The notes under the pieces were generated by a model, which did no database searches, was not told the DNA's origin, and was given only the letters and a program-made list of their open reading frames with translations. From positions 62,001-126,000 of the forward strand of contig NZ_AUAC01000008.1 of NCBI RefSeq assembly GCF_000428525.1: DNA of 64,000 nucleotides, given 5' to 3'. Position 1 is the stretch's first letter, and every line of letters starts with the position of its first letter. This document shows, piece by piece, positions 54,834 through 59,006 of this stretch. This DNA comes from Hellea balneolensis DSM 19091. Its GTDB lineage: Bacteria > Pseudomonadota > Alphaproteobacteria > Caulobacterales > Maricaulaceae. Made by a program: the position numbers and the translations under genes.

Positions 54834-55916
54834 ATGGCTTATTCAGAATCCGCTGCGCTTAAAGCGCTTTCCGAAATTCGTGACCCCCGCACAGGACGGG
54901 ACATTGTCGCCTCGGGCATGCTTGCTGATTTGATTTTCAAAGACGGTCAACTACGCGCCGTACTCTCTATTGATCCTGCTTTGGCAAACGGCTTTGAGCC
55001 TGTTCGGAAATCGGCTGAAGATACGCTTGCCGCCTTGGAGGATGTGGAGACGGCTTCTGTCATTCTGACTGCGCATAAAGCTGCGCCCCAATTGGGTAAA
55101 TCAGCGGCTCCAAAAAAGCGGGTCGTTCCCCACCAAGCCCGCCGTCCTGACGGCTATCAAGGCGACAGCCAGATTGAAACCGTCTTAGCTGTCAGCTCTG
55201 CCAAAGGCGGTGTCGGCAAATCGACAATGGCCGTCAACTTAGCTGTGGCTTTGGCCAAACTTGGAAAATCCGTCGGGCTGCTCGATGCAGACATTCACGG
55301 GCCCAGCGCGCCTATTCTCTTGGGCTTAAAAAACGTCATGGCCAAGACCGAAGAGTATGAAGGTCGCCGCCTAATCAAGCCCTTCACGGCTCACGGCATC
55401 AAAGCCATGTCGATTGGATTCCTCACTGAAGATAACGGACCGATTATCTGGCGCGGGCCGATGGTTCAGGGCGCGATTTCTAAAATGCTCTGGGATGTGA
55501 ATTGGGGCAAACTCGACTACCTCATCATCGACATGCCGCCCGGAACAGGAGACGCGCAATTAGGCCTCGCCCAAGACATAAAACCCCAAGGCGCCATCAT
55601 CGTCTCAACTCCGCAAGACCTCGCACTCGCTGATGCCCGTAAAGGCGTAAAGATGTTCGAAAAAGTTGATATCCCGATACTCGGCCTCATTGAGAACATG
55701 GCCGTTTTCATCTGCCCCGATTGCGGCAGTGCCCATCACATATTTGGTAAAGACGGCGCAAGGGCCGAAGCCGAAAACATGAAAGTCCCTTATCTCGGTG
55801 CAGCCCCGCTCGATATGGTGATAAGAGAAAGCGGTGATGCAGGTATTCCTGCGGCGGCAGATGACGGCAAAATCGCGGATATATTTGCGGAAATGGCCCA
55901 GGCCATTATCGCATAA
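54834..55916 (+). CDS. Mrp/NBP35 family iron-sulfur cluster carrier ATPase
   Basis: A 360-residue Fe-S carrier. The N-terminal domain (about 1-80) is a MIP18/FSCA-type module (KALSEIRDPRTGRDIVASGM). The deviant Walker A is SAKGGVGKSTMAVNLA near 122-137. DADIHGPSAPILLG and IDMPPGTGDAQL are Mrp signatures. The cluster-binding CxxC is FICPDCGSAHH near 290. It delivers Fe-S clusters to apoproteins. It lies directly after the HEAT-like gene and ends abutting the stop of folD on the other strand. Confidence 0.95.
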   Translation: MAYSESAALKALSEIRDPRTGRDIVASGMLADLIFKDGQLRAVLSIDPALANGFEPVRKSAEDTLAALEDVETASVILTAHKAAPQLGKSAAPKKRVVPHQARRPDGYQGDSQIETVLAVSSAKGGVGKSTMAVNLAVALAKLGKSVGLLDADIHGPSAPILLGLKNVMAKTEEYEGRRLIKPFTAHGIKAMSIGFLTEDNGPIIWRGPMVQGAISKMLWDVNWGKLDYLIIDMPPGTGDAQLGLAQDIKPQGAIIVSTPQDLALADARKGVKMFEKVDIPILGLIENMAVFICPDCGSAHHIFGKDGARAEAENMKVPYLGAAPLDMVIRESGDAGIPAAADDGKIADIFAEMAQAIIA

Positions 55917-56798
55917 CTAATCCAACCATCCCGCCGCGATTTGTTTTTCGAAAGCGGTAATCGCATTTTGCATGAGGATTGCGACGGTTACAGGGCCGAC
56001 GCCGCCTGGGACAGGCGTGACCCAACTGGCGACCTCTTTCACGGCATCTGTATCCACGTCTCCGACAATTTCGGTCCGGCCGTCTTTATGCGTGATTTGA
56101 TTGATGCCGATATCAATCACGGCGGCGCCTGGCTTGACCATATCTGCGCCAATCAGGTGCGCCTTGCCAACTGCTACAACAACTACATCCGCGCGGCGCG
56201 AATGAGCGGCCACAGAGCGGGTCATGTGATGACAGACTGTTACCGTCGCCCCTTCGGCCATCAACATAAAGGCAGCGGGTTTTCCGACAATGGCGGAATG
56301 CCCGATGATAACAACTTCAAGCCCCTTTAGCGTGAGCCCCGTCTCTTTAATCAGTTCGACTGAAGCCGCCGCTGTACAGGGCGCAAGCGTCAAATCATCA
56401 TAAACAATATTTCCGATAGAGGCTGGATTCATACCTTCAACATCTTTGAGCGGGTGAATAGCCGATTGCAGTGAGCGCACATTGATATGATCCGGCACGG
56501 GGCGTTGTAGAATAATCCCCAGAACATCGGGGTCATCATTCATGGCTGTAATCTTCGCCTTACAGGTCTCTTGGCTCAGGTCAGCGGGCCAGAACTGCGC
56601 GTCAAAGGGAATGCCCACGCGCTGCGCTGCGCGCTCTTGGCCGCGAATATAAATTGCGACATCATCCTCACCGCCAATGGAGATCGAGACCAGCCGGCCC
56701 ATAGGCCGTTTTTCTGCTATCGCTTTAACCCGCGATTTCACATCTTTTAAAATACGCTTTCGAGCCTGTTGGCCTTTTAATAAACGGGGGTCAGACAT
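55917..56798 (-). CDS. folD: FolD family methylenetetrahydrofolate dehydrogenase with altered active site
   Basis: A 293-residue protein of normal FolD length that aligns with E. coli FolD without gaps through the first 120 residues. The NADP domain has VVIIGHSAIVGKPAAFML and the C-terminus VTPVPGGVGPVTVAILMQN. The catalytic Tyr50 (AIYIRGQERAA) is present, but the lysine at 54, essential for cyclohydrolase activity in known enzymes, is Gln (codon CAA). Gln98 is kept (GIILQRPVP), while Asp121 is Glu (KDVEGM). Known human K56Q enzyme loses cyclohydrolase but keeps dehydrogenase activity. Activity here is therefore uncertain. It stands alone next to Mrp. Confidence 0.93.
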   Translation of the reverse strand: MSDPRLLKGQQARKRILKDVKSRVKAIAEKRPMGRLVSISIGGEDDVAIYIRGQERAAQRVGIPFDAQFWPADLSQETCKAKITAMNDDPDVLGIILQRPVPDHINVRSLQSAIHPLKDVEGMNPASIGNIVYDDLTLAPCTAAASVELIKETGLTLKGLEVVIIGHSAIVGKPAAFMLMAEGATVTVCHHMTRSVAAHSRRADVVVVAVGKAHLIGADMVKPGAAVIDIGINQITHKDGRTEIVGDVDTDAVKEVASWVTPVPGGVGPVTVAILMQNAITAFEKQIAAGWLD

Positions 56799-56874
56799 AG
56801 ATAGCTCCGCGCTGTTAATTAATTGGCTCCGCTATAAAGCGATAATGCCAAATGGCCATCATTAGAATTTGTTT

Positions 56875-57432
56875 TTAAGTGGAGAGTTTATTTTGGCAGG
56901 ATTCAAGCATAGCCCTCAAAGTGTCCGCGCCTAATGTTTCAGTCAGCGCGATATTACGCTGCGGGATTGTTTCAGGGTTCGAGTAAGTTTTAAGCACAGC
57001 TTCAACACTGGCTTCGCGCAATATGTGGAGCATAGGGTAAGGCGACCTATTCGTATAATTCTGCGCATCATCCTCCCCTGTACCTTCAAAGCGGTAAGAG
57101 GGATGAAAACTGGCTAGCTGATAAATGCCTTCATAGCCTTGAGCCTGTATCATGCCGTTCGCCATATCCAGCAGGTCTAAATAATCATCAAAGTCGTCAA
57201 GCAATCGCGGGAAAATAAGCAGGGTTGTTTCAATAGCGGCGCTGGCGCCCAGCTTGGCGCATTCAAGCGCGAGGCGTTCCAATTGAAGCCCAACCTCTGC
57301 CGCCTCAATGACTTCATAATGAATGCGGCCCAAGTCAAATTCCCGCTTGGCAAAAGGGCAAAAATTGTGAGCTATCACGACCGAGGACAGCCATCTTTTT
57401 GTATGCCCAATAATGGCCGCTTCATTCGGCAT
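56875..57432 (-). CDS. DUF1415 family protein
   Basis: A protein of about 185 residues from the ATG at 57432, which is preceded by GGGGTGAG about 6 bases upstream and lies five bases after the acyl-CoA synthetase stop; the frame extends 12 codons further without support. HNFCPFAKREFD, RFEGTGEDDAQNYTNRSPYPMLHILRE and the ETIPQRNIALTETLG end are DUF1415 features. The Cys and acidic residues suggest metal or Fe-S binding, but no function is established. It is probably co-transcribed with the upstream synthetase. Confidence 0.88.
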   Translation of the reverse strand: MPNEAAIIGHTKRWLSSVVIAHNFCPFAKREFDLGRIHYEVIEAAEVGLQLERLALECAKLGASAAIETTLLIFPRLLDDFDDYLDLLDMANGMIQAQGYEGIYQLASFHPSYRFEGTGEDDAQNYTNRSPYPMLHILREASVEAVLKTYSNPETIPQRNIALTETLGADTLRAMLESCQNKLST

Positions 57433-57437
57433 TATAC

Positions 57438-59006
57438 TCACCCCACGCGGCGTTTTGTGCCTTCCCAATAAGGTTCGCGGAGCTGACGGCGCAGAACTTT
57501 GCCTGAGGCATTACGCGGGAGCACCTCAGCAACATCGACCGATTTTGGGCACTTATATCCTGCGATACGGCTCTTGGCATAAGCGATAATATCTTCTGCC
57601 GCGGGACTGCATCCCGCTTTGCAAACTATAATCGCTTTGACCGCTTCTCCCCATTTCTCATCCGGCACGCCAATGACGGCGACATCCGCAATATCAGGAT
57701 GGCCAAATAGCGCGTTTTCGACTTCGGCAGGATAGACATTCTCGCCGCCCGAGACGATCATATCTTTCACGCGGTCATGGATATAGAGGAATCCCTCCTC
57801 GTCAAAATAGCCCGCATCACCTGAGCGGAACCACCCGTCCTCTATGGCTTCGGCTGTCGCCTCTGGGCGGTTCCAATACCCCTTCATGACAAAGCCCGAT
57901 TTAATGAGGATTTCACCGACTTCGCCTTGGGGAACTTCATTCCCGTCTTCATCGACACATTTAATTTGCGTCCCTGGATAAGGCACCCCGCAAGAGCGAA
58001 GCTTGCCCCGCGCAGGATCATGCGCTTCGGGGAGCATATAAGTCGCCCCGCCTGTCGTTTCGGTCAGGCCGTAAACCTGGGTAAATTGGCAGCCAAAAAT
58101 ATCCGCCGCCTCAAGGAGAAGGCTTTCCGCAATCGGAGATGCGCCGTATGACATAATTTTATAAGAGGAGAAATCGCGTTCCCGCACGCCCGGCGTTTGA
58201 GTCAGCATAAGAATAACAGCTGGCACCAAAAAGCCGTGGCGAATTTTTTGCTGCTCTATCAAATCCAGAATATGGATGGGATGAATTTCGCGCAGGATAA
58301 CCGCCTTGGCCCCTTGAATGAGAGACAGCAAACCAATATTCACTCCCGCAATATGGAAGAGCGGCATGGCATCGAGAACAGGATCACCCACGTCGTAATG
58401 CGCCCAGATCAACTCAGCGGCTTGTTCGAAAAAACTCAGGAAATTATTATTTGTAAGCTGCACACCTTTAGGCAACCCCGTCGTGCCGGAGGTATAAAGT
58501 TGCAACACATCATCTTCGCCGTCATGGGAAAGCTTGGGGTCGGCAACGTCTTGACCATCGCGCCACGGCGTGAAATCCGTCCAATCGCTATGATCGCCAT
58601 CAATCGCAATGACGGTTTTGAGGGTTGGGCACTCCGCCAAAATGCTCTCAATTATCTCATAATATTCGCGGGCGACAAAAAGCACGACAGCTTGGCTATC
58701 ACTCAGAACAAATTGCAATTCAGGCGCCGCAAGACGGTTATTCATCGCCGCCAAAGCCGCCCGCGCTTTATTCGCGCCAAATAATATCTCGTAATAAACA
58801 TCCATGTTTTTACCGAGATAGGCTACGCGGTCTTCGGGCTTCACGCCCAGCGCGATAAGGCCATTGGCAATTTGATTAGAGCGGCTATCGAGCTGCACGA
58901 ATGTCGTTTCCTGCCCCTCAAACCACATCGCCGTCGCACTGCCGTAAAGCGCCGCTTGATGGCGCGGAATATCTGCCAGAAACGGCATGGCCTTTGTATC
59001 GATCAC
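57438..59006 (-). CDS. Acyl-CoA synthetase (AMP-forming, long-chain type)
   Basis: An AMP-binding enzyme of about 522 residues. The start is taken as GTG at 59006 because GGGGAG lies seven bases upstream; the ATG at 59021 and the frame start at 59126 have no such site. Motif A3 is LYTSGTTGLPKGV, A5 TQVYGLTETTGG, A7 GWFRSGDAGYFDEEG, A8 RVKDMIVSGGENVYPAEVE, and A10 has the catalytic Lys in PRNASGKVLRRQLR. It activates fatty acids to acyl-CoA through acyl-AMP. The divergent gene at 59125 leaves about 118 bp for promoters. Confidence 0.92.
   Translation of the reverse strand: MIDTKAMPFLADIPRHQAALYGSATAMWFEGQETTFVQLDSRSNQIANGLIALGVKPEDRVAYLGKNMDVYYEILFGANKARAALAAMNNRLAAPELQFVLSDSQAVVLFVAREYYEIIESILAECPTLKTVIAIDGDHSDWTDFTPWRDGQDVADPKLSHDGEDDVLQLYTSGTTGLPKGVQLTNNNFLSFFEQAAELIWAHYDVGDPVLDAMPLFHIAGVNIGLLSLIQGAKAVILREIHPIHILDLIEQQKIRHGFLVPAVILMLTQTPGVRERDFSSYKIMSYGASPIAESLLLEAADIFGCQFTQVYGLTETTGGATYMLPEAHDPARGKLRSCGVPYPGTQIKCVDEDGNEVPQGEVGEILIKSGFVMKGYWNRPEATAEAIEDGWFRSGDAGYFDEEGFLYIHDRVKDMIVSGGENVYPAEVENALFGHPDIADVAVIGVPDEKWGEAVKAIIVCKAGCSPAAEDIIAYAKSRIAGYKCPKSVDVAEVLPRNASGKVLRRQLREPYWEGTKRRVG

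Follow-up and report, generated by a model that had tools for sequence, protein, structure and literature searches.

FolD carries out methylene-THF oxidation and then methenyl-THF hydrolysis at a single site, and FolD-like dehydrogenases without cyclohydrolase have also been described, among them yeast MTD1, which is NAD-linked and dehydrogenase-only, and an enzyme of Peptostreptococcus productus. In E. coli FolD, which is NADP-dependent, the K54N mutant kept about 19% of the dehydrogenase activity while its cyclohydrolase was undetectable, and its authors pointed out that methenyl-THF hydrolysis can be spontaneous (PMC5688156). In Bombyx MTHFD, the K53A mutant retained cyclohydrolase (kcat/Km 0.097 vs 0.13), which means that this activity can survive removal of the lysine; the D120A mutant retained it as well (0.097), with undetectable methylene-THF kinetics, values with varied NADP+ or NAD+ being tabled nonetheless (PMC6443876). 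The same source terms the P. productus dehydrogenase monofunctional and states that it needs NADP+, and PMC11064299 terms MTD1 cyclohydrolase-only in one sentence and describes a dehydrogenase reaction in the next.

Human MTHFD2 and MTHFD2L, both FolD paralogues, act in mitochondrial formate production with NAD+ as cofactor, MTHFD2L accepting either cofactor. Ser197 of human MTHFD1 and Arg233 and Arg201 of MTHFD2 contact the 2'-phosphate or Pi, and these positions have been tied to the choice between NADP and NAD (PMC9173628). Among bacteria, a Fig. S4 legend lists folD together with tmm, tdm, fhs and genes for formate dehydrogenase (PMC4744692), and for the MtgBCD/MetF2 system of Ruegeria pomeroyi it was proposed that methyl-THF is oxidised to methylene-THF (PMC12478193).

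Here we describe a FolD paralogue encoded in a 64,000-nucleotide stretch of the Hellea balneolensis DSM 19091 genome, hereafter the window. It belongs to what we call the Q-type, FolD with Q54 and E121, as distinct from the K-type, canonical FolD with K54 and D121. Word matching in open-licence literature, over the matches listed and the portions of text available, showed no description of a lysine replacement in a bacterial FolD, nor of a second FolD in these clades, and the excerpts of PMC11306105, PMC13390433, PMC3160333 and PMC5023235 contain no mention of a changed FolD. The gene neighbourhood is already known, since the folD beside R. pomeroyi tdm and fhs was published as an ordinary folD (PMC4744692), whereas the Q-type variant is apparently undescribed.

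A FolD paralogue with changed active-site residues

The window gene is a member of the FolD / THF dehydrogenase-cyclohydrolase superfamily, with PF02882 and PF00763 scoring 200.6 bits (cut-off 27) and 90 bits (cut-off 32.8), respectively (Table 1). An AlphaFold2 model with a mean pLDDT of 93.8 predicts an intact fold; the best 50 solved structures listed were all FolD/MTHFD enzymes, human MTHFD2 and MTHFD2L being near folds. MAFFT alignment with E. coli K-12 FolD (NC_000913; Y50, K54, Q98 and D121) placed Y50, Q54, Q98 and E121 at the same positions of the window protein. The initial annotation had reported exactly these two substitutions with Y50 and Q98 kept, and both the alignment and the codons agree with it. 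The alignment that it described as gapless does run without gaps from about residue 27 to about residue 239, but two cancelling one-residue gaps lie earlier, one in the E. coli sequence near residue 3 and the other in the window protein after residue 26. D121 of E. coli FolD is the pterin-binding aspartate, the counterpart of D125 in the human enzyme.

Table 1. Features of the Q-type FolD gene and its neighbours in the window, and methyl-metabolism genes on contig C1 of the same genome
Feature	Location	Position	Strand	Details
Q-type FolD paralogue	window	55917-56798	-	293 aa; PF00763 at residues 7-121, PF02882 at residues 125-286
Gln54, codon CAA	window	56637-56639	-	replaces YxxxK lysine; Q in 81/81 Q-type, K in 59/59 K-type
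Glu121, codon GAA	window	56436-56438	-	replaces pterin-binding aspartate; E in 81/81 Q-type, D in 59/59 K-type
Codons 143-145	window	56364-56372	-	PCTAAA vs PCTPxG; A143 and A145 in 81/81 Q-type, P143 and G145 in 59/59 K-type
His167, codon CAT (GHS)	window	56298-56300	-	H in 81/81 Q-type; R (GRS) in 58/59 K-type
His191, codon CAC (CHHMT)	window	56226-56228	-	H in 81/81 Q-type; S in 58/59 K-type
mrp/ApbC-type ATPase ORF	window	54834-55916		adjoins the FolD gene tail to tail (convergent)
DUF1415 protein gene	window	56875-57468	-	PF07209; upstream of the FolD gene, same strand
Methyl-metabolism island	C1	roughly 1,002,400-1,041,500		about 40 kb
MttB-family methyltransferase	C1 island			PF06253
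MtgC-like corrinoid protein	C1 island			NF047996, below cut-off
Pterin methyltransferase	C1 island			NF005719, above cut-off
MetF-like protein	C1 island			PF02219
DUF5981 and DUF1638 proteins	C1 island
Fhs	C1 island
Two sarcosine-oxidase-alpha proteins	C1 island			TIGR01372, above cut-off
Two further GCV_T matches	C1 island			above cut-off (four in island altogether)
BCCT transporter	C1 island
Formate dehydrogenase alpha subunit	C1 island			above cut-off
Fifth GCV_T match	C1, outside island	794597

The protein resembles canonical bifunctional FolD, both that of E. coli and the K-type of its own genome, in its fold, in having the two Pfam domains and in keeping Y50, Q98 and the PVPGGVGP loop. 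Relative to the aligned K-types, the Q-types have Q, E, A and A in place of K54, D121, P143 and G145, and two His residues in place of the R167 and S191 present in 58 of the 59. Of the curated NCBIfam FolD models, 30 matched and none of the 25 listed passed its cut-off (the top score among those listed was 272.3 bits, for a model whose cut-off is 411), whereas the genome's own K-type FolD scored above cut-off for NF010785 and NF010783.

A PF02882 search of the genome revealed two full FolD genes, on contigs C5 (canonical, K54/D121) and C6, and none on contig C1; the two proteins are 33-36% identical. The canonical copy on C5 rules out the Q-type as the sole FolD of the genome. One Fhs gene was found, on contig C1, and there was no FTCD_C (PF04961) match in the genome at E values up to 0.001, so that FchA was rejected as the missing cyclohydrolase. 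The expectation of the initial annotation that the genome would need a further cyclohydrolase source or the formyl-THF ligase route is thus answered by the canonical FolD and Fhs.

The Q-type gene lies outside the C1 cluster, between the mrp-type and DUF1415 genes, a position that counts against the role in methyl-group catabolism considered below. The mrp neighbour is not conserved, since only 2 of 80 related Q-type loci gave an Mrp match, and the DUF1415 protein had a match in one of the 80. Scanning positions 55600-57100 gave one promoter-like site, on the opposite strand (1.8 expected), and four terminator-like sites, all within the FolD gene (1.6 expected).

Conservation and distribution of the Q-type

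From a scan of public genome contigs we retained the best 80 of 204 loci, which encode proteins 68-93% identical to the window FolD and are mostly labelled Alphaproteobacteria (Hellea, SAR116, Rhizobiaceae and Rhodobacteraceae groups), a few being labelled otherwise. Both Q54 and E121 were present in all 80. Residues were then counted in distinct sequences of at least 270 aa, after removal of duplicates and of shorter ORFs (for example L010 and a partial ORF in L106). The resulting 81 Q-types, window included, span 68-100% identity, and Q54, F65, E121, A143, A145, H167 and H191 are fixed in every one of them; all 81 consequently lack the two residues that define bifunctional FolD, the YxxxK lysine and the pterin-binding aspartate. 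The 59 aligned K-types carry K54, S65, D121, P143 and G145 without exception and R167 and S191 in 58 cases; beyond these 59, one K-type has Ala at both 167 and 191 (L128) and another has Ser at 145 (L154). Conservation of Q54/E121 in relatives, proposed as a check in the initial annotation, was therefore positive throughout (80/80 loci; 81/81 Q-types vs 0/59 K-types).

Comparison of the window gene with three relatives gave dN/dS values of 0.03-0.09 (NG86), at dS values of 1.8-2.0 that are near saturation; two further window-relative pairs yielded no dS. A sequencing error or a pseudogene is ruled out by the low dN/dS together with Q54/E121 in 80/80 loci. Y50, Q98 and the PVPGGVGP loop were invariant across 40 aligned sequences of both Q- and K-type.

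Phylogenetic analysis showed that Q-type FolD is a single clade. A quick method was used to build trees of 141 rows, in which long branches were flagged. The Q-type side comprised the window, 27 of the 81 Q-types and 21 class-survey loci, and the 92 K-type rows included E. coli as sole outgroup; L142, which has an ambiguous residue, was omitted. The resulting 49 Q-type rows split from the K-type rows at an SH-aLRT of 100, and this value persisted without the eight diagnostic columns, ruling out a clade created by these sites alone.

The distribution of the Q-type is patchy. In the order of the window's genome, 13 of 249 genomes gave a match at E <=1e-60, three of them Q-type and the other ten K-type. 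A survey of 385 genomes of the class, the window's own included, counted 21 carriers at E <=1e-95, weaker Q-types staying uncounted at this threshold. All 21 class-survey loci besides the window's carry Q54, E121, H167 and H191, one having Ser143, and 15 deeper loci (L162-L176), at 55-61% identity, still retain Q54 and E121. A phage origin was rejected: 53 of 50,697 phage records matched at E <=1e-10, all below 60% identity and the ten listed at 37-39%. Spread by plasmids was rejected likewise, just 3 of 72,556 plasmid records matching at E <=1e-60.

Several carriers bear labels other than Alphaproteobacteria. Enemella evansiae is an actinobacterium, and a contig filed under this name (L101, JAFKDC010000045.1) carries a Q-type gene; stretches of about 2.1-2.4 kb of this contig are 82-85% identical to two contigs of Mameliella (L104 and L108), and assembly contamination seems likely. 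Four bins labelled Gammaproteobacteria, Vicinamibacteria or Thiothrix (L063, L071, L079 and L083) hold Q-type genes at 72-74% identity, which may reflect either transfer or misbinning.

Predicted catalysis and cofactor

From sequence comparison and genomic context we consider it probable that the Q-type is a methylene-THF dehydrogenase with little or no cyclohydrolase, probably using NAD+, that oxidises methyl groups catabolically. The dehydrogenase-only enzyme suggested in the initial annotation is accordingly the best-supported reading among those weighed here, the nearest evidence being E. coli K54N (PMC5688156); the annotation itself had pointed to the human K56Q substitution. We infer the monofunctional character by analogy with this mutant, Bombyx K53A being the contrary case. 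Glu121 retains the carboxylate, yet in view of the undetectable methylene-THF kinetics of Bombyx D120A the Q-type dehydrogenase itself might be impaired. In its action the Q-type may resemble a monofunctional dehydrogenase, for instance yeast MTD1, to which, as to the P. productus enzyme, we liken it from their descriptions. Whatever its activities, the Q-type is a natural test of the role of the FolD lysine, on which the E. coli and Bombyx mutants disagree.

It is conceivable, if unlikely, that the Q-type is still bifunctional, with Gln54 and compensating Glu121, Phe65 and Ala143/145 giving another proton path in a second isoenzyme for catabolic conditions. The cyclohydrolase retained by Bombyx K53A (PMC6443876) would permit this, and the Q-type changes occur as a fixed set, as expected for a re-tuned active site; the undetectable cyclohydrolase of E. 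coli K54N (PMC5688156) argues against it, as does the retention of another PF02882 gene in 48 of the 49 carrier genomes searched (from 50 of the 80 loci, L116 left out). The remaining genome, G280, shows one FolD only, which would favour bifunctionality, but it is a metagenome bin (L055) and may be incomplete. Among the second PF02882 genes, 30 sequences were read; K54 is present in 29, and in the other the residue is ambiguous.

Returning to the dehydrogenase-only reading, its cofactor was approached through the motifs at residues 167 and 191. His167 was matched by motif to Arg201 of human MTHFD2, and His191 to Ser197 of MTHFD1 and Arg233 of MTHFD2 (His232-Arg233 vs His190-His191), so that the Ser197/Arg233 position is changed in the Q-type as it is in MTHFD2 and MTHFD2L. 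Unlike the Q-type, which has His at both positions, MTHFD2 uses Arg201 and Arg233 with Pi and Mg, and it keeps the lysine (Lys88; PMC9173628). The following Arg192 is also replaced, by M in 66, L in 13 and K in 2 of the 81 Q-types. On these grounds NAD+ is likely, though not certain, to be the Q-type cofactor, the uncertainty arising because E. coli FolD, which has Ala167 and Arg191 in our alignment, uses NADP+ (PMC5688156). The NADP+ requirement stated for the monofunctional P. productus enzyme (PMC6443876) also counts against NAD+. Residues 167 and 191 do vary, given those of E. coli FolD and the two Ala residues of the K-type L128.

A tentative alternative, overlapping the preferred reading in all but the cofactor, is the same catalysis linked to NADP+. 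The two histidines could bind the 2'-phosphate, and the Q-type would then differ in regulation only; the NADP dependence of E. coli FolD despite its having no Arg167 indicates a plastic site, but Q-types have lost the two usual contacts and also the Arg192 that follows, which speaks against NADP+.

Genomic association with genes of methyl-group catabolism

Searching the 49 carrier genomes revealed an Fhs match in 47, two being without one. In the class survey, Fhs and MttB were each present in 21/21 carriers, vs 177/385 and 82/385 class genomes overall, respectively. At the level of genera, all 15 carrier genera were among those having MttB (58 of 277 genera; hypergeometric P 1.3e-11) and among those having Fhs (124 of 277; P 3.5e-6), both P values ignoring kinship between genera.

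The surroundings of the Q-type genes point the same way. Five genes were sought in the 80 Q-type loci: Fhs, FdhA, FdsB, Tdm (TMAO demethylase) and sarcosine-oxidase alpha, a homologue of which shares its GcvT domain with Tdm. One or more of them occurs in 42 loci; the other 38 have none and weigh against the association, although many loci are cut by contig ends, from which some of the zero counts arise. A Tdm homologue is near-full-length in 21 of the 80 and partial in 5 more; FdhA was found in 15 (14 full, 1 partial), FdsB in 11 and Fhs in 12 (one partial). In a comparison set of 20 stand-alone K-type loci, hand-chosen from the same carrier genomes, we found no Tdm, FdhA or FdsB, and Fhs in 11; Fisher P values for Q-type vs these hand-chosen loci were 0.006 (Tdm) and 0.04 (FdhA). 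Proximity to Fhs is not specific to the Q-type, because 11 of the 20 K-type loci have it too. The tmm-tdm-fhs cluster of R. pomeroyi and the Tdm clusters of Rhodobacteraceae show a neighbourhood like that of the Q-type; it is by neighbourhood that we liken the folD named there to the Q-type, the Fig. S4 legend calling it dehydrogenase/cyclohydrolase (PMC4744692).

In the window genome, the C1 island (Table 1) resembles the MtgBCD and MetF2 system of R. pomeroyi, and the following route can be proposed. Glycine betaine or another methylated amine would donate a methyl group through the MttB-family methyltransferase, the corrinoid protein and the pterin methyltransferase to give methyl-THF, which the MetF-like enzyme would convert to methylene-THF; sarcosine-oxidase-type and other GcvT-domain demethylases would yield methylene-THF directly. 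The Q-type FolD would oxidise methylene-THF to methenyl-THF, from which 10-formyl-THF would form spontaneously by hydrolysis or through the genome's canonical FolD. Fhs would then release formate with a gain of ATP, and formate dehydrogenase would oxidise formate to CO2. An NAD-linked dehydrogenase would suit this oxidative direction, with the canonical FolD serving cyclohydrolase and biosynthesis. As a dedicated oxidative dehydrogenase, the Q-type would supply the methyl-oxidation step after Tdm, sarcosine oxidase or MtgBCD and MetF2, and the signature Q54, E121, H167 and H191 would separate catabolic from biosynthetic FolD in genomes.

Among the 70 Q-type loci with at least 900 bp upstream, a canonical folD lies directly upstream of the Q-type gene in 20, of which seven show a 4-base overlap of the two ORFs, and in 50 it does not; in L176 the tandem order is reversed. 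This arrangement bears on a further alternative, which we hold to be very improbable, that the Q-type is no methylene-THF dehydrogenase in vivo, and that it acts on another folate or else accompanies canonical FolD (e.g. in a mixed dimer) as a partner that is inactive or regulatory. Besides the tandem genes with their overlaps, the change at Asp121 would fit this idea, as methylene-THF kinetics were undetectable in Bombyx D120A (PMC6443876). It is opposed by the invariance of Y50, Q98 and the PVPGGVGP loop in the 40 sequences, by the low dN/dS and by the 50 loci with no canonical folD directly upstream.

If the Q-type is instead an active dehydrogenase, as we prefer, it is an unlikely further step that this alphaproteobacterial subfamily is NAD+-specific, cyclohydrolase-dead and dedicated to oxidising the methyl groups of glycine betaine and TMAO, and passes methenyl-THF directly to canonical FolD, in a mixed complex where the two are encoded in tandem. 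Were this true, a single compartment would keep the NADH flux of catabolism apart from the NADPH pool of biosynthesis, in parallel with MTHFD2 and MTHFD1, which do so across two compartments.

Q-type copies occur on two annotated plasmids. A plasmid of Ponticoccus alexandrii carries, in a row, formate dehydrogenase genes, fhs, folD(K), folD(Q) and tdm; on a Paracoccus aminovorans plasmid the Q-type gene lies by a BCCT transporter gene, and choX and betC follow at a distance of about 8-9 kb on the downstream side. Both Q-type copies are named bifunctional, as is the folD(K) of P. alexandrii, and a metabolic model using such names would therefore count the protein for both steps. Genome G621 holds two Q-type genes (L161 and L177), each directly after a canonical folD, and two Fhs genes, and the module therefore seems to have been duplicated there.
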